Below, one piece after another: positions 4,101-62,959 of a DNA stretch of 64,000 bases. Both the position numbers and the translations under genes were made by a program. This DNA comes from Ecdyonurus torrentis. Its lineage: Eukaryota; Arthropoda; Insecta; Ephemeroptera; Heptageniidae. The stretch lies in the NCBI GenBank assembly GCA_949318235.1, contig OX439133.1, positions 12,607,646 to 12,671,645 on the forward strand. Direction: 5' to 3'. The stretch's first letter is position 1. Each line of letters opens with the position of its first letter. The notes under the pieces are model-generated. The model did not search any database, had not been told where the DNA came from, and saw nothing but the letters and a program-made list of their open reading frames with translations.

Positions 4101-4832
4101 CTTGTAGTTTGTTATGATTTCTATTTCTTCTTTTTCTTCTTGACGTTCTTTTGGTTTTTGTGATACGTCCATTTTAGCTACATTTTTTGCCTTACGAAAT
4201 TTTCCAGCTGGAACTTTGCGTTTTAGCATTGCCTTATCTTCTTTCTTGATTGCTGATTTTGCTTTTAGACCTTCTAACCAGAATATTTTGGCATTTTTAT
4301 TACTCAAGGTTTTGAATAATTCCTCTAATTGTTTAATAGTATAGAAACTACTTAAACATTTCTCAAATTGCCCAGCTGTATGAAGAGAATAATCTGGTAT
4401 TTCCCATTCAATTTTATTGGTTTCAGATCCGAGTTTCCATAATTTGAGCATTCTAATGAATCCAGCTGATATCTTAACAGCACATTTGATTTGCTTGATT
4501 TCAAGATCAGTGAATTTTGGTGGTTTAGAACCAAGTGAAGATTTATAATCTAAGTATTGTTCATGATATGATTCAATAAAAGCTTCAATAGATTCATACT
4601 TATTTGTTATAGCAGTAAGAAATTCAATAAATACAATATCAACATTGATACTATATTTTTTTAACAGTATTTCTCTACTACTAATAGCATATTTTGTCCA
4701 AAATTCATTACCTTGATCTTGATACATTTTTTTATATTCATCATTATTAGTAAATAGATCAACTTCTTGTTTAAATACATTTTGTTCTATTAATCTAGAA
4801 ATGAAATCTAATTTTAAAGATATACACCTCAT
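1173..4832 (-). CDS. Large intronless protein with C-terminal variant MYND zinc finger (paralog 1)
   Basis: A single 1,219-residue open frame without introns. The ATG is the first after an in-frame stop at 4845-4847 and has A at -3. Most of the protein is helical-looking, Leu/Ile/Lys/Glu-rich sequence that I do not recognise; residues about 190-240 form a Lys/Glu-rich linker. The C-terminus has a MYND-type zinc-binding pattern with ligands C1163, C1166, C1179, C1182, C1194, C1198, H1207 and H1211. MYND fingers normally end H-x3-C; here the last ligand is His. MYND domains usually bind short proline-rich partner motifs, so a protein-interaction role is likely, but no catalytic domain (for example SET) is visible. 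It is a tandem paralog of the gene at 9679-12891, sharing blocks such as WLWSxFPExWK, ENRIGRIV and QYILPSI. The N-terminal 270 residues or so have no counterpart there. The function is unknown; the intact frame argues for a live gene. Confidence 0.85.
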   Translation of the reverse strand: MRCISLKLDFISRLIEQNVFKQEVDLFTNNDEYKKMYQDQGNEFWTKYAISSREILLKKYSINVDIVFIEFLTAITNKYESIEAFIESYHEQYLDYKSSLGSKPPKFTDLEIKQIKCAVKISAGFIRMLKLWKLGSETNKIEWEIPDYSLHTAGQFEKCLSSFYTIKQLEELFKTLSNKNAKIFWLEGLKAKSAIKKEDKAMLKRKVPAGKFRKAKNVAKMDVSQKPKERQEEKEEIEIITNYKKTTLLWLSTASIPPRLRQNLNVRGVFEILRDSSNLSSYFWKVFEIALTPLLEPKYHSINIQDLVTSNARHGVSTWSTWVNETFGPNLLTVIHILAPSARNPEEMSLQGKEEWKKKMDSIVKAVASVTEMDSSPKYEDNAKKALDFLLEPTILIQLPSNLSLLHQWLAAAYVEVLLFEKNSMELHFWPLPSDLIKPAAKLLEMVRKLKENIILGFTILFQLVMGRQKETTYEKWILEEVVLPSLEILQFLITGKAYSILRSIKKLAWSKPQDFQKDWLYIADHVYTISDPDLLKYSTNFPYSDIFWDSVNPILYFLVGTPEKLKTGSIINNLHKKQNKSQSQNSYEQNKNLSLSSKILVKRFEIECRDVTYTPDHILETGISTIKEVIIDTGRAPNLEWDDLSSDLIDDFDWVNKPCIEIKLAIALRRRQASLFASENEDSVMARIIRLGLEISERELLISLAFYINRADSRNPVAIKLDKSTPMEIHNMMKLLEEVEGNKRDKKWLWSQFPEEWKKPVNPNEEELDFKSGIESIVQTCENRIGRIVLNSAEKGLEKLGDKFPYWQTVQYILPSIVAEFVQETSNPYAEKLNTESVTKMPYGTQNKMLQKVMKQHPMATDSAINSLKFIDGLLKSYEMKYTNWISSSKNCELLPIDEYILNMNELNELKACIDYYKEMFKAYSYAFIKPELEKSYCYEIINTITEWCKYDNNSTEVFFFLMKWNIKTYNFIKNFYDTSIKSWEVPLPDGPICVPDLSQIYLEEAIVLVLINAIHASAISDESVQADLVKMNHAAKRSSLYEWRCKFMEYITNDSDDGTEVATECLFQRVILSSMYESIREYVKKKGTINMRFIHLYPLKPSQIPIALTFCEEGKIKSLDKLLPLLVNPETPLYPNLEYTYEGTKVKGELGKECIEGIRRCNNCTQMEIKKGSYRTCLKCIEDKYPEVHYYCSKKCEDGYWKKKHKAQHVDHMLGIP

Positions 4833-4968
4833 TTTGGATACGTATTAATAGTCTCTCTCTTTTTTTTTTTACACTTACAATTAGATAGCTTACATTTGAT
4901 TTTTACTTCGGAGGTGCATGAAGATGAGTGGGAGGACAAACGTTAGTCTGGAGGGCTGATATGGTTAC
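4833..4968 (-). other. Probable 5' leader of paralog 1, with possible 3' splice site
   Basis: On the minus strand a T-rich tract followed by CAG ends at 4969, a good 3' splice site, so the leader exon would begin at 4968 and run into the ATG at 4832. It contains one short upstream reading frame (ATG to TAA, nine codons). The matching upstream exon is not identified. Confidence 0.35.
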
Positions 4969-5051: not shown

Positions 5052-5470
5052 TGATAAATTTAATTTAAAGAAAAGGATAGGAGAAAACCAGCAAGAGCCT
5101 TACCATAGTGAAGAGAGTCCCATAGTTCGGTGAAAATCTTGCTAGCACAGATATAAAATAACTAACACATTGGAAATATTTTGGCAATTGACTCCAAGAG
5201 AGATATGGAGCGTGTTATGCCTTCATCAGTCCTTACAGACTCAGAGAGAAACTATGAATGAAATTCATTCATAGTTTCTCTCTGAGTCTGTAAGGACTGA
5301 TGAAGGCATAACACGCTCCATATCTCTCTTGGAGTCAATTGCCGAAATATTTCCAATGTGTTAGTTATTTTATATCTGTGCTAGCAAGATTTTCACCGAA
5401 CTATGGGACTCTCTTCACTATGGTAAGGCCCTTACTGGTTTTCTCCTATCCTTTTCTTTAAATTTATCAT
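5052..5470. mobile_element. Fold-back element, family V copy 1 (about 419-bp palindrome)
   Basis: Two arms of about 205 bp meet almost without a loop near 5262 (ATGAATGAAATTCATT at the centre). They match closely over their full length, with only a few differences such as GGCAATTG against GCCGAAAT. The arms contain GTCCTTACAGACTCAGAGAG and GATAGGAGAAAACCAG. Related, more degraded copies lie at 8225-8640, 8981-9590 and 16300-16540. No coding capacity; probably a non-autonomous DNA transposon. Confidence 0.8.
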
Positions 5471-9678: not shown

Positions 9679-12600
9679 TTATTTGTCATTTGATTTTTTC
9701 AAACCCAACAACTGATTAACATGTTCTTCCTTATGTTGTTTTGCCCACCATTCCTTTTGACACTTTACACTACAAAAATAATTCACATCTTCAAATTTTT
9801 CTTCCAAGCATTTCTCACAAACTAAAAATAATCCCAACATTTTCTCTACTTTTGGACAATTACGACATTTATTATTAGTTCCAGTAGCTTGTGATTGTAT
9901 GGCAAATTTAGAACCTGGGATTTCAACTTTTGATTCTACCTCCTTTACAGATAGCGTTGTTTTTGCATCATCTCTATCTTGACGTTGTTGTGCTACTCCA
10001 CGAGTTGGTAATGTCAATAATGGTAATTTAATCTCTAAATTTTTAAAATCACGATTAAAGAACATTAGTACAAGTTCTTTAATTTCAAGTGGTAATCCAT
10101 GTAACGATGGCATTTGATTAGGTCCCATATTTTCTCTCATACTTTTAAAGAATTTGTAATCTTTACTGAGTAATGTCTTACCATTATCAATGATTTTAGT
10201 AATAATTTTCTTTGATTTACTACCAGAATGTGCTTTAGCAATTGCAAAATAGAATTTATATCTCCAACGTAATACTTCGATTGTATTTTGATCTAGATTG
10301 CTAGCTAATGGTGCTACTCTAAGAAGTTGTAAAGTATTAGTAGCACCTTCTGGTAATTTTTCAAAATATAGAAGAAATCTAGTAAATACGATTTCACAGA
10401 ATGATAAGAGTAAGCTAATATGATGCATTGATTTTATTTCAGGATGTATTTTGAAACTTTCTTGTATAACAGGTGCCCATATTTGACATACAACTCTATT
10501 TATGGTATTTATAATACCAAGTGATTTCATATTCCAGGTATATAAGAATTGTAATACTGGTATTTGTTCTTCAGTATTATCTTCTAATTCTGAATACCAA
10601 GCCAATGATGCATGTTTTAACATTTCAAATTTATGCATTGATAAATTATCAGTTGTATTAGGTACCTCTGTGTTTAAGAATGAATTTAATAATATATTTG
10701 AATGTGCCAATAGACTTTTCATTTCATTATATACAGCATAAGTTTCAATTTGTAATATATCATCGAGCAGACGTGTATCTTTTGGTTTTCCTATATTATT
10801 TGAGGACCAATTTTGATATGATATTTCATAGTATTGAATGAGATGATGTAAGAATTTGATATAATGTGATTTAATATTTTTATGTTCATTTTTACAAGGA
10901 TTTAATGTATTGGTATCACTTATAAATGAAGCAAGAATAGATGGAAGAATATACTGTACTGTATTCAAATGTGGAAATATTTTACCATCATTTTCAAAAA
11001 TTTCATGATACTTAAATGCTGTATTATATACAATTCTACCAATTCTATTTTCAAATTCTTGGATTATATTTGAAATATTATATTCAAATTTCATTTCTTT
11101 TTCATCAATATTTACAGCTTCTTTCCATGATTCTGGGAACTTGGACCACAACCACTCTCTATCTCTTTTTTCAGTTTGTATTTCTCCCAGAATTTCCATC
11201 ATTTTTGCAATTTCTAACGTAGGCAATTTATATTTTTTTACATTAATATCTACAGGAGTAAGTTTCATTTTCTCACTCAACAACTCTGTTAATTTTAATA
11301 TCAATTCTCTATCTACAAGCTCTTGTTCCAGAGCAATTGTTCGTGGTAACATGCCATCTTCTCTCTCAGTACCACTTAATGTCTGATGTATCTGTTTATA
11401 CATCAGACTAAAAATGATACACTTTTCTTCAGTGCTCATTTCTGTTAATTCTTTTTGCATCAAAGAATCAATATCTACAATTTTACATTTTTGAATACTT
11501 TCTTTTGCTTTATCCCAACCTTTTTTCTGTAATCTATTTTTATTGAAAATATTCTCTTCAATAGTTTTAATAGTGTTATTTTTTAAATCTTGGATATTTA
11601 AGGTAGGTAAATTTGATTTCTTTTTATATTCCATAAATTTCTCAATCAATTGTGATTCTATTTTTGATATTTGGAAGATTTTTTCTGTTGATGGAGTCAT
11701 ATCTCTAGTGATATTAATTTCATTAATTAATTCTTGTAAATCAATACTAGAGTAATCAGTATTTACATCTAATGGTCCTAATGGAAAGTCATACCAAAAT
11801 GAGAAGCTACAGAACATACTGTTGAAGACAGTTTCTAATTTTTCATTTACCTTAAATGCATTCTCAGAGATATAAACACCATCTGAAGTACGAGTAACAC
11901 TTTGACCCCAAGATAATTTCTTGATGGATTTTAATAATGCATGTCCCTTGTTAGGATTATTAATCATTTCTAACGGTACTAATGATGGCAGTACCACATT
12001 ATCTAAGATCCATTTTGGATGTTGTACGTCAATCTGTGGGTACTTCACAATTTGAATACATAGAATCGTGTAACCTAAATATATTCTTTCTTTAAGTTCA
12101 CGTACCATAGATACTAACTCTCTTGCTATGGGTTCTATTTGAGGATTCAATGCCCACGTACGTAACTCCAAGGTGAATTTTTCAAATTTGTTGACTTCTC
12201 CGAGAGCAGTTAATAACCACTGTTGATACATAACAGAATTCCATGGTAATTGAACTAGTACACGTGGTTCTAATATAAATTCTATTGCTTCAGTAGCACA
12301 ATCTTTTGTCTCTAGTGGTAGAATAGAACTGATTTTTGTACATTTACCAATACTTTCTAGAGTACCAGATATGTTAGTTAGGAAATCACAAGACGGTTTC
12401 ACTTTTTTAACATATTCTTTGATTGCTATCACTTTATTAAGATTTTCTTGTTGGGTATGTAGATGATTCAAGTATTTTAATCCAAATGTTTCACAGTATA
12501 GTGTGAACCAAGTAGAAGTAGCAAGATAATGAAAATTTAATGGAAAACTTGAATCCTTATCATCATGTATCAATTTTGTAAGGTTCATAGTATGAAACTT

Positions 12601-12891
12601 ATTAGCTAAAATTGATGTAATTGATAATTCAAGTAAATTAAATACAATACCAGGTGCACCAGTATTACTTTTTAACAATTCAAATAACCCTAAATGTTGT
12701 TTACTTTCATATTTTGAACTATCAGGTTGTGGTAACCAATTACCAACTGGGGCATTATACACTGAACTAATGCAATTTGTGCTTGTGTCTGCAACACCCT
12801 CACCCATTGACAGCAATGCCAGTTCTACCATTCTTTGTATTATATCTGACCTACTTGCACCTACATCTAAACCTAAATCTTGTGGATTCAT
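9679..12891 (-). CDS. Large intronless protein with C-terminal variant MYND zinc finger (paralog 2)
   Basis: An intronless frame of 1,070 residues starting MNPQDLGLDV; I chose the ATG at 12891 because the two codons upstream are TTG and AAG. It is paralogous to the gene at 1173-4832: WLWSKFPESWKEAVN, ENRIGRIV, QYILPSI, the FELL/LxPxxLVQLP region and the C-terminal finger all align. The finger ligands are C1009, C1012, C1025, C1028, C1040, C1044, H1053 and H1057, with the same spacing as paralog 1 and again H-x3-H at the end. The protein lacks the long N-terminal extension of paralog 1. Known MYND domains recruit partners through proline-containing motifs; what the large helical body does is unknown. 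Same strand and about 4.8 kb upstream of paralog 1, consistent with tandem duplication. No truncation or internal stop. Confidence 0.85.
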   Translation of the reverse strand: MNPQDLGLDVGASRSDIIQRMVELALLSMGEGVADTSTNCISSVYNAPVGNWLPQPDSSKYESKQHLGLFELLKSNTGAPGIVFNLLELSITSILANKFHTMNLTKLIHDDKDSSFPLNFHYLATSTWFTLYCETFGLKYLNHLHTQQENLNKVIAIKEYVKKVKPSCDFLTNISGTLESIGKCTKISSILPLETKDCATEAIEFILEPRVLVQLPWNSVMYQQWLLTALGEVNKFEKFTLELRTWALNPQIEPIARELVSMVRELKERIYLGYTILCIQIVKYPQIDVQHPKWILDNVVLPSLVPLEMINNPNKGHALLKSIKKLSWGQSVTRTSDGVYISENAFKVNEKLETVFNSMFCSFSFWYDFPLGPLDVNTDYSSIDLQELINEINITRDMTPSTEKIFQISKIESQLIEKFMEYKKKSNLPTLNIQDLKNNTIKTIEENIFNKNRLQKKGWDKAKESIQKCKIVDIDSLMQKELTEMSTEEKCIIFSLMYKQIHQTLSGTEREDGMLPRTIALEQELVDRELILKLTELLSEKMKLTPVDINVKKYKLPTLEIAKMMEILGEIQTEKRDREWLWSKFPESWKEAVNIDEKEMKFEYNISNIIQEFENRIGRIVYNTAFKYHEIFENDGKIFPHLNTVQYILPSILASFISDTNTLNPCKNEHKNIKSHYIKFLHHLIQYYEISYQNWSSNNIGKPKDTRLLDDILQIETYAVYNEMKSLLAHSNILLNSFLNTEVPNTTDNLSMHKFEMLKHASLAWYSELEDNTEEQIPVLQFLYTWNMKSLGIINTINRVVCQIWAPVIQESFKIHPEIKSMHHISLLLSFCEIVFTRFLLYFEKLPEGATNTLQLLRVAPLASNLDQNTIEVLRWRYKFYFAIAKAHSGSKSKKIITKIIDNGKTLLSKDYKFFKSMRENMGPNQMPSLHGLPLEIKELVLMFFNRDFKNLEIKLPLLTLPTRGVAQQRQDRDDAKTTLSVKEVESKVEIPGSKFAIQSQATGTNNKCRNCPKVEKMLGLFLVCEKCLEEKFEDVNYFCSVKCQKEWWAKQHKEEHVNQLLGLKKSNDK

Positions 12892-12897
12892 CTTCAA

Positions 12898-12930
<33 letters not shown>

Positions 12931-13029
12931 TACAGAATTATCAGATTTGAATATTCTATATTCCCATTTCTTATAACATTATCTATTATTTAATTAATAG
13001 CTACATTATAATTAAGAATTTAATTACCT

Positions 13030-27736: not shown

Positions 27737-29825
27737 ATGTACGAGGATTCTCCGGTACAATGGGGCTCCAGCATGGATTGGTTAGTCACGATATTAGCTG
27801 TTCCCTGCCTGGTGCTACTGTCTATATTGTTGTTGTCTGAAGCTGTAGAGGACCCTACACCAGAGGAGAGAACACAGATTTTGATCGCAGCTATCATGCT
27901 ACTTATCATATCTGTGTTTGTTTGTTGTTATGTCACAAGACGTTTAGGACTTACCTGTTGCATTGCTTGGAGTACAAACTCGGTAATTATATTTTTTATA
28001 TTCTAACACAAATTATTTAATTTTTTATATAATTAATTTTTATGTCACTGTTGATGATATTCGTAACCCTGTTCCCTTGCTTCAAAAAATGCGCAATAGT
28101 GTTTAGTTTATCGGTTTAGCGCGCGGGGAGACGTGGGGAAAGCTAAGTTCCCTTAATTTAACATTACGCTTATGGGGAAAAAACACTTTTTTTTTTTTTT
28201 TTTTTTTGAGAAAACTACTCCACCGATTACGGAGAAATTTAAATTAGAAATACTAGACATACTTTTACGTGTTTTTAGCCACAGAAATGTTTTACGGATT
28301 TTTTTAAACCGATAACCTCCAATCCATTTAACAAAGCATTGGGTGATCGGCATTTTTACGTGTTTTAGAGGAAAAAAAGTGTTTACAAACCATTATTAAC
28401 ATCAATGTAAACTTAAGTTATCATGATTTAATTATCATGATTTAATTATCATGATTTAATTATCAAATTTAGTTATCAAATTTAAATTATTATTCTTTAA
28501 ATGTAGCAGAAAAGGTCATTTATATATAAAGCTGCGTTTAAACGTCATTTTATTATATAATTATTCTTTAGGCAATGGAGTTTATTAGTGAGGTACACGT
28601 GACAAAATAAGGATTACCTTATTTTCAATCCTTTATAGCATATGTGTGAATTTTTATTTCTTCTTCTTTTTTTGAGAAAACTACTGCACTGTAAATATAA
28701 AATAATGCTATCAAAGGCTTTTACATATTTTAAACGAGTAAAAAAATATTAAGAATTTTCATCATCATCGATAACCTAATAATTCACATCATTAAATTTT
28801 AATTTCATTTTTCAACAATTTCCCCTTTAGACCTTTTTTTTTTTTTTTTTTTTTTTTTCATTAATATTATTTTGAAATGATTACCATATTATTTTGTTCA
28901 GTATTTGCATTATGCAAGTAGGCATAGGTAGGAAAAAGTTGCAGCCTGTGCTGTTATTTTGCGAGTTTTAAAAATTATTTAAAAATACTTAAAGACGTAG
29001 AACACCTTGAACAAAAAAGTTGCCTAATATCCTAACATACCCAAATATCAACATTATTTTGGTCGGAGTCATTGATTTCTAATTTATTTTCCATTTACAA
29101 AGTGTCAGTTGCGGGTTTACTACGTCACAGCTCGCCTGTTTCCGCGCGCGTGGACCAGGCGAGCTGTGACGTAGTAAACCCGCAACTGACATTTTGTAAG
29201 TGGAAAATAAATTAGAAATCAATGACTCCGGCCAAAATAATGTTGATATTTGGGTATGTTAGGATATTAGGCAAGTTTTTTGTTCAAGGTGTTCTACGCC
29301 TTTAATAAACTCAAAAATTAAAAATTCGCAGTACAATGTTCTCTTTTAGAATATGCAATAAAATTACATCCTAATTTTTTTATTGTCTTCCTCATTTTTA
29401 AATTGTATTGATTTAAATAGGAATTATGTTGCTATGCAAGGTTATAAGAAATAAATGAATGTCAATGCCCCTTTACACATTTAAATAAACAGTACATACA
29501 TCTATAAATTCCTAATGAAACTGAAGTCCACAATTCAATGAAAAAAATTATTAAAAAAATAAATAAATAAAATCATTAATCAACAAATAAATAATAAAAA
29601 TTCCTTTTTTTCTTCTGTTTACAGCCTCAAAGACAATTACTTTTAACACCTGCAATAAGTTACGATACTTTTGTCAATATGGATAACCTTGAGACACCAA
29701 TCAAGGTCAAAGTTCATTCATTAAAAATTAAACCAGAAATACATATGAGTACCAGTTCAGGACAAAGAGCTTCAATGGAACAACAATGTTATCAAAATTT
29801 AAGACCACAAGAAGATAACGGTTGA
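27737..29825 (+). CDS. Two-helix membrane hairpin protein, 148 residues (two coding exons)
   Basis: Coding exons are 27737-27982 (82 codons) and 29625-29825 (66 codons plus TGA). The exon containing the ATG begins at 27728 after TTCTGTTCCAG; the intron donor is TCG/GTAATT and the acceptor TTCTGTTTACAG/CCT, with the frame unbroken (phase 0). The protein has a short N-terminus (MYEDSPVQWG), a hydrophobic helix at about 15-34, a short acidic loop (VEDPTPEERTQ, 37-47), a second helix at about 48-66, then TRR and a hydrophilic tail. By the positive-inside rule both ends should face the cytosol. Cysteine pairs C63-C64 and C74-C75 beside helix 2 could be lipidated. There is no signal peptide or enzymatic motif, and I recognise no family; small vertebrate TMEM hairpin proteins have a similar shape only. 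The exons have coding-like composition amid AT-rich introns, supporting a real gene. Confidence 0.8.
28103..28370 (+). mobile_element. Family K repeat copy 1 (in intron 2)
   Basis: GGTTTAGCGCGCGGGGAGAC, CGTGGGGAAAGCTAAG, ATTACGCTTATGGGG, a T run, TTTGAGAAAACTACT, TTTTACGTGTTTT and CGATAACCTCC. The same text in reverse is at 53255-53515, with broken copies at 30700-30870 and 61512-62395. Confidence 0.65.
28989..29305. mobile_element. Family B palindromic MITE copy 1 (TTAA-flanked)
   Basis: Two arms of about 150 bp around the GC-rich centre CCGCGCGCGTGG (about 29148). Ends TTAAAGACGTAGAACACCTT and AAGGTGTTCTACGCCTTTAA share the flanking TTAA. Arms share GTCAGTTGCGGGTTTACTAC and CAGCTCGCCTG. 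Lies inside intron 2 of the membrane protein gene. Confidence 0.85.
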
Positions 29826-34953: not shown

Positions 34954-35400
34954 TATAGGGTCTATGCATTTATGTTAAAGTCAACGTCATGTTGGATAAC
35001 TCAATAACATGGGTGGCATAGGAAAATAACTCATTTTGACAGTTTAAAAATGCTAAGCAATATTTTTAAGAGCATTGATGCTGCTAACAGATTGAATTAG
35101 TATCTCAAGTATGTGAGAAAAATAACAGTAACAAAAACTTAAGCGATTTTCCCAAGAAAATTGCCAAAAAAACGAAGTTTGTCCAATGCTGAGCAATGTT
35201 ATTCACTACTCCAGTATGGTCTCCAAGTGCATTAAATATGACGTCATCCGCATACATCCTATCAGATGTTGGAACACAACAAAGCTATAAAAAACAAAAC
35301 TTTAAATATAACATCATATTTAATGCGCTTGGACGCCATACTGGAGTAATGAAGAACATTGCTCAACATAGGACAAAATTCGTTTTATGGTTATATTCTT
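34954..35400 (+). mobile_element. Family F element copy 2 plus an inverted partial copy
   Basis: TATAGGGTCTATGCATTTAT at the left, then TCATTTTGACAGTTTAAAAA, CTGAGCAATGTTATTCA and TATGACGTCATCCGCATACA ending near 35270. A partial copy in reverse follows to about 35400 (CGCCATACTGGAGTAATGAA, ATTGCTCAACATAGGACAAA). Confidence 0.7.
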
Positions 35401-36495: not shown

Positions 36496-37202
36496 GTGGT
36501 TTCATTCATGTTAAAGTCGACGTCATAAGTGAGTACTAAATAACATTGGCCGGTATAGGAAAATGGCACATTTTGCCAGTTTAAAAATACTTCGCAATTT
36601 TTTTGAGAGAATTGATGCTGTTAACAGGTTGAATTAGTACCTCAAGTATGCAAGAAAAATAATCATGACCAAAAAATACCTAATTTTCCAAAGAAAATAG
36701 CCAAAAACTACGTTTGTCCTATGCTGAACAATGTTATTCATTGCTCAAGAAGAGCATCGAAGAGCACTCAGAATGACGTCATGCGTACACACCCTATAGG
36801 GTGTATCCGCATGACTTCATAATAAATGCTCTTTGACGCCATACTTGATCAATGAAAATCACACAGCATACAAACATCGTTTTTGTCTATTTTCTTTGGA
36901 ACATCAGCATTATTTTTTTCATCATGTTATTATTATTATTATGTATTGTAGAAATATAATAATATGTAATATAACTATTGTAATTATATTTATATTTGTA
37001 AGAAAAATGTTCACATGGAATGTGTTTAATAAATAAATAAATATATTATTTTTCCCACATACTTGACATACAGCATCAATGCTCTTAACAATATTGCTTG
37101 ATATTTTAAAACTTGCAAAATGAGTTATTTTACTATACCAGCCAATGTTATTGAGTGATTCAACATGGCGTCAACATTAACATGATTGCATACACCCTAT
37201 AT
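36496..37202. mobile_element. Head-to-head pair of family F elements
   Basis: One copy (36496-36798, plus sense) ends ACACCCTATA, and a second in reverse (36795-37202) begins TATAGGGTGT, sharing the central TATA. The pair makes a 700-bp imperfect palindrome abutting the family B element. Both carry TTTTAAACTGGCAAAATGA-like and GAGCAATGAA motifs. The second is about 100 bp longer owing to A/T-rich expansions. Confidence 0.72.
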
Positions 37203-41100: not shown

Positions 41101-42191
<1,091 letters not shown>

Positions 42192-44154: not shown

Positions 44155-44714
<560 letters not shown>

Positions 44715-45911: not shown

Positions 45912-46052
45912 TTCATTCATTCATTCATTCATTCATTCATTCATTCATTCATTCATTCATTCATTCATTCATTCATTCATTCATTCATTCATTCATTCAT
46001 TCATTCATTCATTCATTCATTCATTCATTCATTCATTCATTCATTCATTCAT
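45912..46052. repeat. (ATTC)n microsatellite
   Basis: About 141 bp of perfect TTCA/ATTC tetramers. Confidence 0.97.
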
Positions 46053-53084: not shown

Positions 53085-53205
53085 GTAATTAGCATCTCGT
53101 TAAGGTCAAGTTTATAAAGTCTAGTCAGTATGAGTGGCATGATTATATATATAAATACCATCATCTTGAGAGACAAACGTTTATATTCACTTTCACCTTA
53201 TATCT
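53085..53205 (+). promoter_or_regulatory. Promoter and leader of cationic peptide gene copy 1
   Basis: GTAATTAGCATCT at 53085-53097, a TATA box TATAAATACC at 53150, and TTATATTCACTTTC at 53181-53194. The same three blocks, with similar spacing, precede the second copy's first exon (62602, 62672, 62703). From TATA to the last block is exactly 31 bp in both, where transcription should start. The leader to the ATG is about 25 bp. Confidence 0.7.
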
Positions 53206-53383
53206 ATGAACATGCGCTTCTTTCTCGTAAGTATTTTTTTACAATGTTTTTTATACATTTTTTTTTAAATTGAGGTTATCGGTTTAAAAATTTCTTTGGT
53301 TTAAAACACGTAAAAGTATGTGTAGTATTTCTGATTTATATTTCTCCGAAATCAGTGAAATACTGTAGTTTTCTCAAAACATG

Positions 53384-53430
<47 letters not shown>

Positions 53431-53538
53431 GGTTTTTCCTCATAAACGTAATGTTAAACTATAGGGGACCTTTAGCTTTCCCCACGTTTCCCGGCACGCT
53501 AAACCAATAAGTTCCATTAGTGATAAATGTATATTATA

Positions 53539-53575
<37 letters not shown>

Positions 53576-55543
53576 TGTTCTTCATTTCGTATGGAAAGGT
53601 TGTCTGCCAACACATTCTCTGATTTCGTTCAAATTTGGTACAAATATCAAGTTTAGGGTTTAGAGAAAAGTACTTTTTCAAATTTTGAAAATTTTGAAAA
53701 TTCCCGGAAAAATCCCGCATTTTGTAATTTTTGTAACTACCGACTTTGCTTGGGAAAATTTTTAATTTCTCTTAAATGAATTGGAATCAGTAAATAAAAA
53801 TAGTTGGATGGTATGACCATTAACCAAACCTTTTTTTGTGACAGGTGACCCATGACCTTGAACTCGTGTCAAGGTCAATGAACTGCGTTCAAAGTGGAAA
53901 ATTGCAAAAATGGCCAATTGACGTAACTTTTTTTGGGCATTTTTTTTGCATCATTTTGTAGCCTATAATGTCCTTAAGATATGTGCAAAAATTTGGAATG
54001 GACAAATTGTAACTTTAAACGTGGCGCCACGTCAAGCAGTGGCACCTCGGGTTGGTTGCGGAGTACCGACCAACTAAAAAATTCAAAATAAAAATAAGTT
54101 ACAAAGATATTCAAACCAAACTTGGTGCACATACACATATACACATGGAACATATATTTACAAAGTTATAAACTTATGGCGCGAAAATTCAAAATTTGGC
54201 AGTTACGAAACTTAAGAAAAAATCGAATTTTTCTGTATTTTCTCTGTATGCATGATATTGGTTGATCGTGAAAGTTAATTTAGGATATAAAAATACAGAA
54301 TCGGTATGGTTTACACCTAAAATCCATAAAATGGCAAAAAAGAGAAAAAAAATGACTGGCTGAATTTTATAATATTGTAAACAGCAATACTTTGATACGA
54401 TTCAGCATTGTTCACAATTAGCTTAATTATTGTTACTTTAACTAATTATGATTTCTTTAAATAATTTACATTAAATTAATTAATTAAAATATATGATTAT
54501 CTTACTAGCCTTGAAAAAAAAAGTGGTCTGAAAATTTATAATTCATAAATAGTACGGAATACTCTGATACTATGTAAGCCCCGATCCGATCACAATCTGT
54601 TTTTCTAATGATATAGATTGAATTATTATTTATTATTATAATTTGCAAGACATGGAATAATGTAATTTATTTGAAGCCTAATGTAACAATAATTAAGCTA
54701 ATTGTGAACAATGCTGAATCGTATCAAAGTATTGCTGTTTACAATATTATAAAATTCAGCCAGTCATTTTTTTTCTCTTTTTTGCCATTTTATGGATTTT
54801 AGGTGTAAACCATACCGATTCTGTATTTTTATATCCTAAATTAACTTTCACGATCAACCAATATCATGCATACAGAGAAAATACAGAAAAATTCGATTTT
54901 TTCTTAAGTTTCGTAACTGCCAAATTTTGAATTTTCGCGCCATAAGTTTATAACTTTGTAAATATATGTTCCATGTGTATATGTGTATGTGCACCAAGTT
55001 TGGTTTGAATATCTTTGTAACTTATTTTTATTTTGAATTTTTTAGTTGGTCGGTACTCCGCAACCAACCCGAGGTGCCACTGCTTGACGTGGCGCCACGT
55101 TTAAAGTTACAATTTGTCCATTCCAAATTTTTGCACATATCTTAAGGACATTATAGGCTACAAAATGATGCAAAAAAAATGCCCAAAAAAAGTTACGTCA
55201 ATTGGCCATTTTTGCAATTTTCCACTTTGAACGCAGTTCATTGACCTTGACACGAGTTCAAGGTCATGGGTCACCTGTCACAAAAAAAGGTTTGGTTAAT
55301 GGTCATACCATCCAACTATTTTTATTTACTGATTCCAATTCATTTAAGAGAAATTAAAAATTTTCCCAAGCAAAGTCGGTAGTTACAAAAATTACAAAAT
55401 GCGGGATTTTTCCGGGAATTTTCAAAATTTTCAAAATTTGAAAAAGTACTTTTCTCTAAACCCTAAACTTGATATTTGTACCAAATTTGAACGAAATCAG
55501 AGAATGTGTTGGCAGACAACCTTTCCATACGAAATGAAGAACA

Positions 55544-55628
<85 letters not shown>

Positions 55629-56149
55629 ATATATAACTGTTCAATAATTTAATTGATAAAATTCAATAATGATAAAAATAAATAGTAAATTTGGTAATTT
55701 TAAACTTGTAAATATAAAATATTCTACGCTAATACGAGTTCTTTGGATATTCTATTGAAAGATATCCATTGCCGTCGAAACGGAAGCGGATGTGAGCGAA
55801 ACCCCTTATAGTCAGCCTCAAAACAGTTGTTTCTTTATAAGTCAATAGTTGGCCTCAAAACAGTTGTACCTTATTAGTCAATGAATCAATATTCCCATAA
55901 TGTTTTATGTTTCAGATATTTATGCTTCTGATGCTTTTGCTCGCCTGTACTACAGAAGGAGCACCATGTATTAAAAAAAAGATAAAGAAGTTTATAAAGA
56001 AACAGGCTATTATTAACGCAGTTCCATTGGTTAAAGGTGCAATTGCAGGAGGTGTGATTGGTAAAAAAGCACTAAAAGCAGGTGCATTAGCCGGAGGTGC
56101 AGGTGCATTGGCTGCAGAGGCGATTGCTGCAGCAGTTTTAATTGGCTAA
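53206..56149 (+). CDS. Secreted cationic Gly/Ala-rich peptide precursor, antimicrobial-like (copy 1)
   Basis: Two exons: 53206-53226 (MNMRFFL) and 55916-56149, joined by CTC/GTAAGT and TTTATGTTTCAG/ATA in phase 0. The product has 84 residues. Residues 3-22 or so form a signal peptide split by the intron (MRFFL + IFMLLMLLLACTTEGA). The predicted mature peptide starts near PCIKKKIKKFIKK and continues with repeated GG, GKK and AGAL motifs (for example GAIAGGVIGKKALKAGALAG). By my count it has eleven Lys and a single Glu, one Cys, and a final Gly that could be converted to a C-terminal amide. A cationic amphipathic head plus a glycine-zipper-like hydrophobic tail suggests membrane activity, as in antimicrobial peptides; no known family is recognised. 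The ATG at 53212 may be the true start, since copy 2 begins MRFVL. The 2.7-kb intron contains a family K repeat and a huge palindrome. Confidence 0.75.
53255..53515 (-). mobile_element. Family K repeat copy 2 (in the peptide gene intron)
   Basis: Reverse-sense match to 28103-28370: GAGGTTATCGGTTTAAAAA, CTCCGAAATCAGTGAAA, GTAGTTTTCTCAAAA, an A run of about 44, CATAAACGTAATG and CTTTCCCCACGT. Confidence 0.65.
53536..55635. mobile_element. Giant palindromic element, 863-bp arms, inside the peptide gene intron
   Basis: Left arm 53574-54436 and right arm 54683-55545 are inverted copies of equal length (863 bp); I found no mismatch in the stretches I compared. The spacer is 246 bp. The ends CGTGTTCTTCATTTCGTATG and CATACGAAATGAAGAACACG abut (TA)n on both sides (53540-53573 and 55546-55635), so it probably inserted into, or expanded at, a TA target. 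Both arms contain the same small frame in opposite directions. No transposase is visible. Its transcript in either direction would fold into a very long hairpin RNA. Confidence 0.9.
55775..55880 (+). repeat. Family O fragment
   Basis: AAACGGAAGCGGATGTGAGC and CCTCAAAACAGTTGT (twice) match 32380-32520. Confidence 0.5.
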
Positions 56150-56207
56150 GACAATTAATGTTTATTTAGTTGATTTTTATCCCTACGTGTGTGCATATAC
56201 TATATTT

Positions 56208-56486
56208 AGAGTAGTTGCATTTAATGTAACCGCCGACGCAATATGTGAAAAATAACATAGCCCAGTTTAAAAATACTTAGCAGAAATATTTTTATAAGAG
56301 CATTGATACTGTTAATAGTTTCAATTAGGTTTTTATGTATGTGAGAAAAATAATAGTACAACAACAACAACAATAATAAATTTCCAAAGAAAATAGCTAA
56401 AAAAGCCACGTTTGTCCTATGCTGAGCAATGTTCTTTATTGTTTCCAGTATGGCGTCGAAGCGCATTCATGAGTCATTGCATTTTT
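56208..56486 (+). mobile_element. Family F element, diverged copy downstream of the peptide gene
   Basis: TTAAAAATACTTAGCA, AGAGCATTGATACTGTTAA, TCCTATGCTGAGCAATG and CAGTATGGCGTCGAAGCGCA. An AATAAA at 56375-56380 within it is a possible, weak poly(A) signal for the peptide gene. Confidence 0.65.
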
Positions 56487-56707
56487 TTACGCTATAAAAA
56501 AAGTGTTACTTAATAATAATATGTATGTATATTTACTTTTTAGATAGTTGAATTACAAATTGGTAATCATCATTAAAATTATATAATATAAAAAAAAGTT
56601 TAATAATATTTTATATATTATATATTTTAAATATTAATACATTTTTATTTTCACGAATACAGACCGAAAATGTCCTTACATTAAAAAAAAAGAAAAGAAA
56701 GAAAGAA

Positions 56708-56760
56708 GAGAGAGAGAGAGACAGAGAGAGAGAGACAGAGAGAGAGACAGAGAGAGAGAG

Positions 56761-56818
<58 letters not shown>
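56708..56818. repeat. (AG)n-rich microsatellite
   Basis: AG repeats with regularly spaced AC interruptions in the left half. Confidence 0.95.
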
Positions 56819-56822
<4 letters not shown>

Positions 56823-56921
56823 GGTACAAAACAGTACTTTCTTCTGCAAAGTATATCAAAGAATTTTAATAATGATTGGCTGCTCTCAAAAAAATATGTA
56901 CAGTATACACTCTCATTACTC

Positions 56922-56953
<32 letters not shown>

Positions 56954-57752
56954 CGTTTGCTCAGAACTGATAAAAAATCATTTGCAACTTGAGGCATGTA
57001 ATTTTTTCCACGACCTTCCGTCCACTTTCAGGTCTTTACGAAGAAAAAATTAAATATTAACCATAATATGTACTGCATAAACCATAGAGTTTTTATAGAT
57101 ATTATATATTATAATCTCTTTGATATAAACATGTAAACAGAAGTGATGTAATGATCAGGCGTTTTTAACAAAAGGAAAATTAAATCATCACATCATTTTA
57201 AAACTCAAACTTTGTATGTATAATTTTTTTTTTTTACAAATGTAAATATAATATCATTGTGTATCGCAAGCATGCTGTCTGTTCCTTTTTCTATATATAA
57301 AAACTACCTTAAATATGTTATTATTATAAAATGAAATGTATTTTCTTTATTTTTATTCTATTATTATACAGTAAAATATATACAAAAAAATATCTATTGT
57401 TTTATTTAGTTATGTACTTATGTAGTTAACAAATGAGATAAATAAATAAATAAACGAGATTTTTTTTAGAAGAAATTTTGCATTAATTTTATTAAGCTAT
57501 ATTGTATTTATGAGACTCTAAAACTATATAGCAAGAAAAATAAAACTCCTCAAGATAAATTTATTTTCTGCAAATAAATACAATCAAAACTACATGGTCA
57601 AAAATGAGAGAATAAAATAAAATATATTACTTGTAATTGCCTGTGAGTATTAAAATTAGTAACACTAATTTAATTTACAAAGAAAATATTAAAAATAATG
57701 ATGGAAATAAGTGAAGTATATAAAGTCATTGAAATAATATCACTAACACTGG
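56819..57752. other. AT-rich intergenic DNA
   Basis: No gene seen; T run at 56928-56953. Confidence 0.4.
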
Positions 57753-58057
57753 TATAGGGTGGTTTCATTCATGTTAAAGTTGACACCATAAGTGAGCTCT
57801 AAATAACATGGGCCAGTGTATAGGAAAATGACTCATTTTGCCAGTTTAAAAATACTTTATAATAGTTTTAGAGCATTGATGCTGTTAACAGGTTGAATTA
57901 GTACCTCAAGTATTCAAGAAAAATAATAATGACAAAAAAATAGCTACTAAAGAAAATAGCCAAAAACTATGTTTGTCCTATGCTGAGCAATCTTATTCAT
58001 TACTCAAGAAGAGCATCAAAAAACATTCAGAATGACGTCATGCGCACACACCCTATA
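57753..58057 (+). mobile_element. Family F element, complete copy (TA-flanked)
   Basis: 305 bp from TATAGGGTGGTTTCATTCAT to GCGCACACACCCTATA. It contains CATTTTGCCAGTTTAAAAAT, GATGCTGTTAACAGGTTGAA and TGACGTCA (58033). The best reference copy of the family. Confidence 0.82.
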
Positions 58058-58111
58058 AGCTTGCATATTATGCATTACGAGACTAGAAATAGTGGTGGTT
58101 ATTATGTTGGG

Positions 58112-58142
<31 letters not shown>

Positions 58143-58174
58143 CTTAGTCTTAGTCAAAAGCACTCAAAAAATAA

Positions 58175-58385
58175 ATACGTAATAATTATACAAGCTCATT
58201 TTCAGTATAATTTGTTCAATACAGCATAATTTATGCTATACGTCATAATAGATATGTTACAGAGCATAAATATTATGTTGTACAGCATAATTATTTGTGT
58301 TGTTCTAATAACTTAGCATCATTTATGCTATAATGACATTAATGCAGCATAAATAATGTATAATTTATTCTATTCGTGAGGTTCC
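58175..58385. repeat. Family J repeat copy 2
   Basis: Second copy of 27215-27412: TTGTTCAATACAGCATAATT and AATGCAGCATAAATAATG in the same order. Confidence 0.6.
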
Positions 58386-58547
58386 TGAATATTGTACTGT
58401 ATTCCTTTTTTATATAATGCGCTCCCTACCTAATAATATAAAAGATTGCGAATTCTTTCTTATATGAATCTTTTAAGAAAATGGTCCAAAGATATTTACT
58501 TAAAAACATGTTTTATAGTGTTGCAGATTTTCTTGAAGGTAATAACA

Positions 58548-58868
58548 TTAAAGACGTAGAACACCTTGAACAAAAAAGACTTGCCTATAATATCCTAACA
58601 TACCCAAATATCAGCATTATTTTGGCCGGAGTCATTGATTTCTAATTTATTTTCCATTTACAAAATGTCAGTTGCGGGTTTACTACGTCACAGCTCGCCT
58701 GGTCCACGCACGCGGAAACAGGCGAGTGGTGACGTATTAAACCCGCAACTGACATTTTGTAAATTGAAAATTAATTAGAAATCATCGACTCCGGCCAAAA
58801 TAATGATGATATTTGGGTATGTTAGGATATTAGGCAAGTCTTTTGTTCAAGGTGTTCTACGCCTTTAA
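58548..58868. mobile_element. Family B palindromic MITE copy 5 (TTAA-flanked)
   Basis: TTAAAGACGTAGAACACCTT and AAGGTGTTCTACGCCTTTAA at the ends. Core CCACGCACGCGG between arms with CAGTTGCGGGTTTACTACGT. Confidence 0.88.
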
Positions 58869-58934
58869 GTATAACTAGCCTAATTTTTTTCTATATCTTC
58901 ATTATCAGTGTATAATGAACACAGTAACAACCAC

Positions 58935-59032
58935 AAGCTACTATTGTATTTGTTGATGTATTTGTGTTATATATTTGACTTGTTCTACTCTGTAAAGACA
59001 GAGAACGTAATAAAATCTTATATCTTATATAA
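58935..59032 (+). mobile_element. LINE-like 3' tail fragment
   Basis: TGACTTGTTCTACTCTGTAA, AGACAGAGAACGTAATAAAA and TCTTATATCTTATAT match 40961-41065 in reverse. An ATATCTT-type tail is typical of CR1/L2-like LINEs. Confidence 0.45.
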
Positions 59033-59048
59033 ATATTTATAAAAATAT

Positions 59049-59392
59049 TTAAAGCCATAGACCACATAAAACAACATTGTGCTTTTTAATGAATAAACAC
59101 AAAATGGGATCTTAAAAACTGATAACAATTTTTACCAGAATGTTAATGTAGCCCCACGAGAGAGTGTAAAAATACTGTAAAGTATGCAAAGTGCGTGAAA
59201 ATTCATGTTTATGACGTCATAAACATGCAAAAATCAGTATGAAAATGTTGTGCGGGTTGCATAAATTGAATGTTCTGATCACTGCTACGGGGCTACTGTT
59301 GGGTTTTGAGACAAACTAATGTTATTTACGTAAATCCCATCAAGTGTTTTGTGATATAAATGCTTATGTTTTTCTCTGGTCTATTCCTTTAA
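59049..59392 (+). mobile_element. Family E element copy 4 (complete, TTAA-flanked)
   Basis: 344 bp between TTAA sites. AAAGCCATAGACCACATAAA at the left, TTTCTCTGGTCTATTCCTTT at the right, TGACGTCA at 59212. Confidence 0.82.
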
Positions 59393-59474
59393 CTGGTTTG
59401 TAAAAAGTTGCAAATAATGTGGTTCTTTAAATTTTAATAAAATATTAGTTGGATTATATTTCAAAATCTAAAAA

Positions 59475-59770
59475 GAAAACTTCAACACTTTATGATGCCA
59501 TTTGAAAGTTAATATTATAAACAGCTATCTTTGATAAAATTTTAAGAACCCGTGACCATCAAATATAAGAGAGAAAAAAATTATTGAAATTAACATGGGC
59601 TCTTATGGGACTAAAACTTCAAAAAAATAATAATTCAAAATCTAGCATGGTGTCCCCTCCAATTTTTTTTTACATTTTTGAAGATAACTTATGCTAATAT
59701 ATCACTGGGCAAAATTTCAGATTTTTATTTGTTTGCAATTTTTTGTCACACCGCGCAGTACCTGATTTTA
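59475..59770 (+). mobile_element. Family Z repeat copy 2
   Basis: CGTGACCATCAAATATAAGA, AACATGGGCTCTTATGGGAC and AAAATCTAGCATGGTGTCCC match 39102-39430. Confidence 0.6.
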
Positions 59771-59929
59771 TCCCGCCTTAATTATAAATTGGTTGATTAT
59801 TATTTGGAACTATTTACAGTCCAATAAAAAAAGAAAATAATAAAAAAAAAAAAAAAAAAAAAAAAATGAAGGCCATAAGTTTTATTTGCAATGTAATGTT
59901 TCTTACAAATTTTGATACTGAGGTTAGGT

Positions 59930-60095
59930 TTTCAAGTATGGGAGAAAAATAATAGTAACATAAAATTAACAAATTTTTCAAAGAAAATGATTAAAAACAA
60001 CACGTTTATCCTATGCTGAGCAATGCTATTTATTGCTTCAGTATGGTGTAGAAGCACATTCAGTATGACGTCATGTGCATACACCGTATAGTATA
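59930..60095 (+). mobile_element. Family F element, right half
   Basis: GGTTTTCAAGTATGGGAGAA, TATCCTATGCTGAGCAATGC and CATTCAGTATGACGTCATGT, ending ACACCGTATA. Confidence 0.65.
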
Positions 60096-60231
60096 CTGTA
60101 CAGTACCTAAGTATACATAAAGTATAATTAAACTTATATTTGTGGAGTTAAAGAGAATATTTGGATATGTACAAAAGTATTTCTGACTCATGTTTAGCAA
60201 TTAAATTTTTGCCTTGAGTGACAAGGGTTGG

Positions 60232-60430
60232 TCTCTCTCTCTCTCTCTCTCTCTTTTAATCAAGCACACGGTCAACATTCCCCAGAAAAAAAAAGAAGTT
60301 TTTGAAGGATGAAATTTAAACAATGTGTCAACTTTGGTAGCTCGGAAAGCTAATAATGTATAAACTTTAAATTTACTAAATTACCTGATGTAATACATCA
60401 AATATAAACAAATATTTTAGTCTTCATCAT
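60232..60430 (+). repeat. Family R repeat copy 2
   Basis: (CT)n, AAGCACACGGTCAACATTCC and GAAATTTAAACAATGTGTCA; second copy of 47434-47690. Confidence 0.62.
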
Positions 60431-60450
60431 TACGTTAATGTTGAAAGTGA

Positions 60451-60607
60451 CTGTACAGTCATTCCAATAAAAAATGAAATTCTATTGGCATATGGGAATA
60501 ACATGTATATTTAGATAGGGTTTTGCGTCAAATGAAATCTCCATCTGATTGCATTGAATGGCCATAAGCCAATACAATTTCATTTTTATTGGAATCATTG
60601 TACAGTA
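60451..60607. mobile_element. Palindromic MITE, family Q
   Basis: Inverted ends TGTACAGTCATTCCAATAAA and ATTGGAATCATTGTACAG, then AAATGAAATTCTATTGGC / GCCAATACAATTTCATTT. About 157 bp, single copy. Confidence 0.75.
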
Positions 60608-60708
60608 AAATGAAGTACTTTTGTTGATTGCAATAATTAGAACATCATAGTTTGGAGAGCACCATTTCAAAACCACATGAAAGTTACTATCGTAAATCTG
60701 CCTATATA

Positions 60709-60713
<5 letters not shown>

Positions 60714-60789
<76 letters not shown>
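60714..60789. repeat. (TA)n microsatellite
   Basis: About 76 bp of uninterrupted TA. Confidence 0.95.
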
Positions 60790-60792
<3 letters not shown>

Positions 60793-60811
60793 TGTCTATT
60801 ATAGATTAAAG

Positions 60812-61075
60812 TATGGTTGCATTTATATAAAAGTTGACGCCATATGTAAGCACTAAATAACTTAGACTTGTATGGAAAAATTACTCATTTTGCCAGTTTA
60901 AAAAAATACTTGGCAATATTTTTTAGATTGAATTAGGTTTTCAAGTATATATGCAAGAAAAATATTATTTATGAATAAATTAATTAAATTTCCAAACCAA
61001 AAACGCAAAAACGTTTATCCTATGCTGAGAGCAAAGTTTCATTGCTCTAGCGTCGAAACAAATTCAGTAAAAGAA
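60812..61075 (+). mobile_element. Family F element, diverged copy
   Basis: TATGGTTGCATTTATATAAA, AGTTGACGCCATATGTAAGC, CTCATTTTGCCAGTTTAAAA and TATCCTATGCTGAGAGCAA. Confidence 0.6.
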
Positions 61076-61511
61076 TAAAAAAAAACTACCCCTGAGTTTA
61101 ATGAACTACAATTATTAGATTAAGACCATTGTAAATTATTTTCAATTATAATAATTGTATATTATTATTAATATTATTTAAAATAATGATCATACTTGTA
61201 ACGATAGAGCCATAGGGTCAAAAAAAAAAAACAAAAAAAAAAAAAAACATATTAGTGTGTTATCAAGCTACATCGTCTCCGCATAGTCATATCAAGACAT
61301 TGACTTAAATGAAAACCATACACATACACGAGTCGTACCGGCCTTATGTATAAGAAATCAATACATATTATAATAAATAGTATTTTATCTATATCTAAAT
61401 TTAATGTTTATAGGTCATATTTTACGTTTCTCTTAAAGTTAGTAAAAAAATTCAGCCAACTTTTTAATTATTTATTATTATTATTTTGTTACTATATTGA
61501 TTGGAGCTTAT
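61076..61511. other. AT-rich intergenic DNA
   Basis: Nothing recognised beyond an A run near 61220-61246. Confidence 0.4.
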
Positions 61512-61548
61512 CAGTATAGTGCGCGGGAAAAGCTAAGGATCCCCTAAA

Positions 61549-61897
61549 TTAAAATAATAGAACAGAGAAAAACATTAGCATTTATATCACAAAACAATTC
61601 ATGGGACTTACAGTACATAAATAACGTACGTTTGTATCAAAACTCAACTGTAGCTCCATAGCAGTGATCAGAAATTTCGAATTATGCAACCCGCACAACA
61701 GTTTTTACTATAATTTTTGCATGTTTCTGACGTCATAAACATATGAATAGTCACTTAAAGTGCATACTTTACAGTATTTTCACGCTCTCTCGTGGGGTTA
61801 CATTAACATTCTGGTAAAAATAATTTAACAGTTTTGAAGATTCCATTTCGTGTTTATTCATTACAAAGCACATGTTATTTTATGTGGTCTATGGCTT
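61549..61897 (-). mobile_element. Family E element copy 5 (inserted in family K)
   Basis: AGAGAAAAACATTAGCATTT, CAGTGATCAGAAATTTCG, TGACGTCA (61728) and CTCTCTCGTGGGGTTACATT. It splits the family K text TTAA...ATTACGCTTATGGGG, so it came later. Confidence 0.72.
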
Positions 61898-62131
61898 ATA
61901 TTACGCTTATGGGGAGAACAACACTTTTTTTTTCTTTTCTCCTTCAATTTTGAGAAAACTACTGCACTCGGAAAACATAAATTGTTCAGTTACATAGATG
62001 TAACATGCTGTAACTCTTCATTACAAACCAATAACTGAATTGAACAGTAACTTGTTAGAAAAAAAGAGTTATTTTTCCAGTGGAAAACAGATAGCTCTTC
62101 ACATCTTAAAAAACTATATACACATTATTAT

Positions 62132-62241
62132 AATGCTGTTCGTAATCCCTGTTCTCTTGCACCAAAAAATGTGCATTCCATTTAAATAACCAAAGGCAAT
62201 TGTCATTTTAGAGGAAGAGAAAAGGGTTTACGAATAGCATT
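62132..62241. mobile_element. Short palindromic MITE, family A copy 3
   Basis: AATGCTGTTCGTAATCCCTG at the left and AAAGGGTTTACGAATAGCAT at the right. The inner GGTGCAGAGA block is mutated on the right side. Confidence 0.75.
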
Positions 62242-62601
62242 TATGTAACAAGTTTATTTTAAAAAAACGTCGGTAATTCTTTGGTTACTTTTTTTCCGTT
62301 CACCGATTCCGGAGATATTTAAATGAAGAATACTTTTATGTGTTTTAAAACTTAAAATTATTTGAATTTTTTTTTTACACTAATAACCTCCATGGAAGAT
62401 AATAATAAAAGAAAAAGAGACAGTATAATATATTTATTATACCATACAACAAATACACATAATATATTATAAAATACTAGTATATAATTTTTTTCAATGA
62501 CGAAAAGTAACAAAACTAAATAGCTATTTAATAAACAGATAATTACTTTACAATCTTTTTTATGTAACTGTACATATTTGAGAGACTAATTGAAGACCCA
62601 A

Positions 62602-62749
62602 GTAATTAGCATCTTGTTCAAGACAAAGTTATATACTTATCTCATCAGGAACGGTAGTCAAGACAACTTCATATAAATACCACAAACTTGAGTATCAAAC
62701 AGTTATATTCACTTTCTACTCACATCAATCAACATATCTACATATCAAC
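62602..62749 (+). promoter_or_regulatory. Promoter and leader of cationic peptide gene copy 2
   Basis: GTAATTAGCATCT (62602-62614), TATAAATACC (62672) and TTATATTCACTTTC (62703-62716) repeat the blocks upstream of copy 1. Spacing is within about 5 bp for the first pair and identical (31 bp) for the second, while sequence between them has diverged, pointing to selection on these blocks. Confidence 0.7.
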
Positions 62750-62764
62750 ATGCGCTTCGTTCTC
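62750..62764 (+). CDS. First coding exon of a second cationic peptide gene (partial)
   Basis: ATGCGCTTCGTTCTC/GTAAGT encodes MRFVL, against MRFFL in copy 1, with the donor at the same codon and phase. No matching second exon is found between 62765 and 64000; since the copy 1 intron is 2.7 kb, it should lie beyond the right edge. Same strand, 9.5 kb downstream of copy 1: a tandem duplicate. Confidence 0.65.
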
Positions 62765-62959
62765 GTAAGTAAAATATAACTAATTCAACCTATCAAACCT
62801 ATATTCTATGTATGCTCTCAAAAATATTTCTTGACGTAAACTTATGTTAACTATAACGTTAACAGGCTTTTCAAATAATATCTATTTTTTTATAATCTTT
62901 TTAAAATTAGTATTTCATACAAATAAATAGTTTTAAAAAAAATGTTTGTCTCACCTAAG

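Follow-up and report, generated by a model that had tools for sequence, protein, structure and literature searches.

In a 64,000-nucleotide stretch of contig OX439133.1 from Ecdyonurus torrentis (assembly GCA_949318235.1), hereafter called the window, we find with moderate confidence a small two-exon gene, probably one of two or more diverged paralogues, whose product would be a linear cationic peptide that is secreted and probably acts as a membrane-active antimicrobial effector. Two sets of observations carry this conclusion. First, a splice donor (GTAAGT at 53227) and an acceptor (TTTCAG ending at 55915) permit a phase-0 join that yields an 84-residue precursor with a hydrophobic amino terminus and a Lys-rich mature part. 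Second, the promoter and first exon of this gene (copy 1) recur about as a unit further along the same strand (copy 2), near the right end of the window. Both the gene and the paralogous promoter and first exon are credible, and an immune role for the predicted peptide is moderately likely.

The first-pass annotation of this DNA described a two-exon gene (53206-53226 joined to 55916-56149) whose precursor carries a signal peptide, a Lys cluster, a single Cys and a terminal Gly. The sequence bears out these splice sites, the phase-0 join and the 84 residues, and the translated precursor contains each of the named features, the signal peptide being predicted by reading. The same annotation proposed an immune-effector cluster with a second promoter and first exon of the same family. 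A secreted cationic Ala/Gly-rich gene and its paired first exon are evident, whereas the immune-effector cluster is an interpretation that these features suggest. The relevant features are as follows.

53085..53205, plus strand: proximal promoter and 5' untranslated region (UTR) of copy 1, with the TATA element TATAAATACCA at 53150 and a presumed start site within TTCACTTTC at 53186; from alignment to copy 2
53206..53226, plus strand: coding part of exon 1, copy 1 (MNMRFFL), with donor GTAAGT from 53227
53227..55915, plus strand: intron 1, 2.7 kb, holding a long inverted repeat and ending in acceptor TTTCAG
55916..56149, plus strand: exon 2, from translation, encoding the end of the signal peptide, then the mature cationic Ala/Gly-rich part; stop codon at 56147-56149
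55907..56149, plus strand: alternative unspliced open reading frame (ORF) of 80 residues, whose ATG overlaps the acceptor
56375..56380, plus strand: candidate polyadenylation signal AATAAA, within a dispersed repeat
62602..62749, plus strand: proximal promoter and 5' UTR of copy 2, with the TATA element at 62672 and TTCACTTTC at 62708; from alignment to copy 1
62750..62764, plus strand: coding part of exon 1, copy 2 (MRFVL), with an intact donor GTAAGT from 62765

Paired promoters and first exons

The two blocks, at 53085-53233 and 62602-62771, span approximately 150 to 170 base pairs (bp) each, and their local alignment score of 64 compares with a maximum of 25 among 1000 dinucleotide shuffles of one block. 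Both present the same order of elements, namely GTAATTAGCATCT, TATAAATACCA, TTCACTTTC, a short 5' UTR, the coding start ATG CGC TTC (T/G)TT CTC and the donor GTAAGT, with the same 36-bp spacing between TATAAATACCA and TTCACTTTC. On both strands of the whole window, TTCACTTTC and GTAATTAGCATCT are confined to these blocks, and TATAAATACCA has a single further occurrence, at 10503 on the minus strand. Likewise, the sequence from ATG 53212 to the donor, searched on both strands with up to five mismatches, is matched only at 53212 and 62750.

Conservation is greatest where the model places coding sequence. Between the ATG and the donor, the copies agree at 20 of 21 bases, compared to 96 of 127 ungapped columns over the remainder of the block; at that background rate, so good a match has a probability of about 0.02, a post hoc figure. 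Moreover, the blastn alignment of the two copies stops one base beyond the donor hexamer, as is expected if constraint is limited to the promoter and exon. The one differing base falls within the five-codon start, which had been reported as the same in both copies, and it changes Phe in copy 1 to Val in copy 2; the shared promoter blocks and donor were reported correctly. Copy 1 has two in-frame ATGs and the first of these, at 53206, lacks a counterpart in copy 2. Because only the second is common to both, translation probably began ancestrally at 53212, and a likely ancestral precursor, judged from this alignment, would have 82 residues.

The second exon and the predicted peptide

Cleavage of signal peptides is placed by the presence of small residues at positions -3 and -1, and by this rule we set the cut by hand after Gly22. 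The resulting mature part has 62 residues, including 11 Lys, 1 Glu, 17 Ala, 9 Gly, one Cys and a terminal Gly. Its net charge is +10, and seven of the 11 Lys residues lie within residues 27-36. The precursor, with its hydrophobic N-terminal core and its 11 Lys to 1 Glu, has both the predicted secretion signal and the strongly cationic mature part that characterize secreted cationic antimicrobial peptides. Linear membrane-active peptides generally follow this plan, with a Lys-rich head and a hydrophobic Ala/Gly tail behind a secretion signal. Within this tail, an 11-base in-frame repeat, GCAGGTGCATT, occurs at 56078 and 56099, and local duplication may therefore account for part of its length.

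Single-sequence AlphaFold2 modeling of the exon 2 product gives helices at residues 2-14 and 17-76 (predicted local distance difference test, pLDDT, 61.5; predicted template modeling score, pTM, 0.22), and modeling of the 62-residue mature part without an alignment gives one helix at 3-61 (pLDDT 71.0, pTM 0.27), both with low confidence. The six-residue KKFIKK sequence of the Lys segment also occurs in 7 of 11 listed papers that share a short fragment of the peptide, and several of these concern, by title or abstract, antimicrobial peptides such as crotalicidin (a snake cathelicidin) or designed peptides. This sharing is a resemblance of composition, not homology.

From this anatomy, the peptide could act as follows. 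The signal peptide would be removed after Gly22. Such removal can be followed by trimming of a dipeptide, here Ala-Pro, which would make Cys25 the first residue. Residues 26-36, rich in Lys, would then bind the anionic membranes of microbes, while the hydrophobic Ala/Gly-rich remainder, beginning near residue 45, would insert into and permeabilize them. In addition, the single Cys could link two chains through a disulfide, and the terminal Gly might serve in C-terminal amidation, by analogy with peptides described below. A bolder proposal is that the gene belongs to an undescribed, lineage-restricted family of membrane-permeabilizing peptides acting as disulfide-linked, amidated dimers, in which a conserved promoter and signal-start cassette drives divergent mature parts encoded by different second exons. 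We consider this combination quite unlikely.

Opposing evidence and rival explanations

Evidence against an antimicrobial effector comes in part from the peptide itself. The helical moment peaks at 0.55 in an 18-residue stretch that begins at residue 19 and takes in four residues of the signal peptide; it is 0.39 and 0.33 for the 18-residue stretches from residues 22 and 25. Over residues 25-43 the value is 0.29, and 39% of shuffles score as high. The ‘glycine-zipper-like tail’ of the first-pass annotation does contain one GxxxGxxxG motif, at 48-52-56, but 22% of tail shuffles also have at least one, and its three Gly pairs spaced four apart are matched by 20% of shuffles. This look is therefore an effect of composition, and the tail lacks the excess of the motif over composition that defines a glycine-zipper membrane peptide. 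We have dropped both the amphipathic helix and the glycine zipper as evidence.

Upstream sequences do not add to the immune interpretation. A search with one consensus, covering both strands over the 1 kb that precedes each start, recovered no NF-kB-like site; the same regions hold five and three copies of GATAA, as raw counts.

For the second copy, no mature peptide was recognised in the window. A tblastn search of the window with exon 2 returned only exon 2 itself and a 14-residue match with an E value of 1.1. Between 62831 and the window end, AG dinucleotides are followed in 16 cases by a phase-0 continuation that reaches 20 codons or more, and none resembles exon 2 by eye; two of them (62960 and 63729) carry Phe or Lys runs derived from homopolymers. 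Thus, of the ‘tandem family’ initially proposed, the duplication of promoter and exon 1 stands, whereas a second exon 2 is not recognised in the window. The mature part of copy 2 may lie beyond 64000, may have diverged too far to be recognised, or may not exist.

Finally, no homologue was accepted from any library searched. Pfam gave no match above its cut-off, and only DUF6861 (E 0.17 and 0.13) and DUF2706 (E 0.37) at E values up to 1. Three weak NCBIfam matches (best E 0.0041) all fell far under their cut-offs, PADLOC gave none, and no PDB sequence was accepted, two chains of Tim22 (E values of 0.21 and 2) aligning to residues 45-73 only. A large protein collection, whose animal coverage is unstated, yielded 32 candidates and none at E values up to 10. 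Neither the 590 pattern matches in bacterial and archaeal genome contigs nor the 68 in viral contigs included a confirmed relative. The literature matches listed for glycine-zipper antimicrobials and restricted alanine-rich families include none that we recognised as this peptide. The description of the family as unrecognised thus holds as far as these libraries go. Because the genome and viral collections contain no animals and the animal share of the protein collection is unstated, this absence says little, and relatives could exist in sister animals outside these collections.

The strongest competing explanation is a non-immune secreted Ala/Gly-rich peptide, such as a component of gland secretion, mucus, cuticle, venom or reproductive fluid, whose Lys cluster serves binding or solubility. 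It would sit well with a Lys segment and Gly spacing that are no more amphipathic or zipper-like than composition gives, and a signal peptide and paired TATA promoters suit any abundant secretion. Nevertheless, 11 Lys residues to one Glu, mostly clustered ahead of a hydrophobic tail, would be hard to reconcile with a bulk structural peptide, and we judge this explanation rather unlikely.

Another possibility is that the promoter and exon 1 at 53206 are never joined to exon 2, which would instead be translated as a single-exon ORF from 55907 or 55922, or that the two parts belong to unrelated transcripts. The exon 2 frame is indeed open upstream through the acceptor to the ATG at 55907, giving a complete ORF whose start is signal-peptide-like, and the intron required by the spliced model is 2.7 kb long with an inverted repeat of 906-bp arms. 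However, exon 1 ends in a conserved phase-0 donor, and the TTTCAG acceptor at 55915 opens the second longest phase-0 frame (77 codons) among the continuations after AG dinucleotides scanned from 53300 to 56200. The longest, of 98 codons, begins within the inverted repeat, at 55351. Furthermore, the only TATAAATACCA/TTCACTTTC pair found upstream of 55907 is that of copy 1. The conserved exon 1 and donor favor splicing over the unspliced ORF, although the splicing itself is something we infer from sequence; the unjoined arrangement appears improbable.

The inverted repeat in intron 1 occupies 53535-55584. Its arms (53535-54440 and 54679-55584) differ by three mismatches and flank a 238-bp loop, and its outer ends run into TA microsatellites. 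The intron transcript could fold into approximately 900 bp of double-stranded RNA. The repeat is likely a recent foldback insertion or one resembling a miniature inverted-repeat transposable element, or else an assembly artefact.

A further reading, slightly less probable again, holds that there is no functional gene, and that a chance ORF or decayed pseudogene lies next to a duplicated promoter fragment. Several coding statistics lean in this direction and add to the evidence against our interpretation. Length alone is weak, as the window has 77 frames of at least 77 codons against a null mean of 40. Signal-peptide-like cationic ORFs number one in the window, and Markov nulls give 0.375 (40 replicates) or 0.49 (100 replicates) per sequence. 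By a codon-usage score that takes the window's two long ORFs as its training set, exon 2 scores 19.16 in sense and 19.54 in antisense, so the two strands are not told apart. Its sense frame comes eighth among the 313 ORFs that reach 50 codons. Ahead of it are the two training ORFs and, all above 19.2, three frames of a single AAGA microsatellite, the antisense frame of exon 2 and the ORF at 29598-29822. Because this score is blind to strand, the strand is chosen by the splice sites, signal peptide and promoter. The surrounding region is also rich in repeats.

Set against the absence of a gene are an intact frame with intact splice sites, and a coding start and donor better conserved than the remaining block. 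In addition, the combination of signal-peptide-like start, cationic character and a codon score of at least 15 bits occurs once in the window and in 0 of 100 Markov nulls, with thresholds chosen after the sequence was seen. The GC content of exon 2 is 40.6%, compared to 29.2% and 26.8% in its flanking 250-base stretches, a level reached by 3.8% of 6377 sampled segments of the same size. Lastly, a precursor cut at Gly-Lys-Lys (residues 56-58) and other dibasic sites into amidated, neuropeptide-like fragments is highly improbable, since such cleavage would leave Ala/Gly-rich hydrophobic stubs and shred the Lys cluster, and no set of repeated Gly-dibasic units is present.

The window as a whole is AT-rich (28.1% GC), with many dispersed repeats and microsatellites. 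One dispersed repeat family (56262-56440, 57841-58001, 59924-60080, 35040-35233 and 36576-36770) supplies the AATAAA located 3' of exon 2. The ORF at 29598-29822 (plus strand, 75 codons, codon score 20.49) is outscored only by the pair of long ORFs and the AAGA frames; it lies close to dispersed repeats and has no Pfam match. The AAGA array itself (44155-44712) comprises 139.5 copies at 100% matches, and other long pure arrays are GT (41562-41778) and TTCA (45912-46052). A palindrome at 5062-5464 has 201-bp arms that are 99% complementary around a 1-bp spacer. The two long ORFs, 1173-4844 and 9679-12978, run uninterrupted on the minus strand for 1223 and 1099 codons from stop to stop. The two are paralogous, with identical residues in 277 of 1038 aligned columns (27%). 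Each has a weak MYND-like finger at its C-terminus (E values of 0.34 and 0.0023, neither of which reaches the cut-off), and for the second of them none of 7991 candidates scored was a relative at E values up to 0.001. ARAGORN in its bacterial setting predicted no tRNA, and Rfam gave no match at its gathering score.

Comparison with known effector peptides

If real, this gene would represent one more candidate cationic effector family for the study of family origins and for peptide discovery. A conserved promoter and coding start beside an unseen second mature part would also make a testable case of effector diversification. Lineage-restricted effector families are already known in mussels and Hydra, as the available portions of two reports indicate (PMC5577615, PMC10945409), and so the general value is modest; the candidate is ordinary in kind.

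The Hydra periculins and arminins are genus-restricted, clustered and secreted, and in these respects resemble the candidate. In contrast, most of them are described, in the available text, as having a bipartite distribution of positive and negative charge and a complex Cys pattern (PMC10945409), and the mature part here has one Glu and one Cys. The mussel myticalins are a taxon-restricted multigene group of linear cationic peptides with a conserved signal peptide and a variable mature part, but the accessible part of their description gives them three exons, with the first intron ahead of the start codon, and a dibasic site that is followed by an acidic propeptide at the C-terminus (PMC5577615). 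The candidate has a single Glu, no acidic tail and an intron inside the signal peptide. The ascidian peptide dicynthaurin, compared by description, shares an alpha-helical character and one Cys per chain, and is reported in the portion available to form a homodimer (PMC2866484). Its monomer has 30 residues, and a dimer is only a possibility for the candidate.

Among insects, Pro-rich or Gly-rich composition distinguishes the hymenopteran abaecin-like peptides and hymenoptaecin from the candidate, with sequence relation examined via Pfam alone. Nonetheless, the genes for these small secreted effectors likewise have a conserved phase-0 intron, which in hymenoptaecin lies at the amino terminus, according to the available extract of PMC2853521.

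The cecropins and stomoxyn offer the nearest parallel. The cecropin layout, as outlined in the portion of PMC6929098 available, consists of a basic amphipathic N-terminal domain, a Pro/Gly-rich hinge and a hydrophobic C-terminal segment, and several cecropins and cecropin-like peptides are C-terminally amidated. The candidate similarly has a signal peptide, a basic N-terminal part, Pro and Gly near the middle and a hydrophobic C-terminal part. When held against this layout, its charge distribution and Pro44 fit, the amphipathicity of residues 25-43 is ordinary, and the low-confidence model has no break at Pro44. Unlike cecropins, it gives no Pfam match above the cut-off, its mature part has 62 residues (60 if Ala-Pro is trimmed) rather than the 34-55 stated in that portion of the source, and, compared by description, it has a Cys and an intron inside the signal peptide. 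Cecropin membership therefore fails on profile and length, and the cecropin layout would be the closest functional analogue of this peptide.

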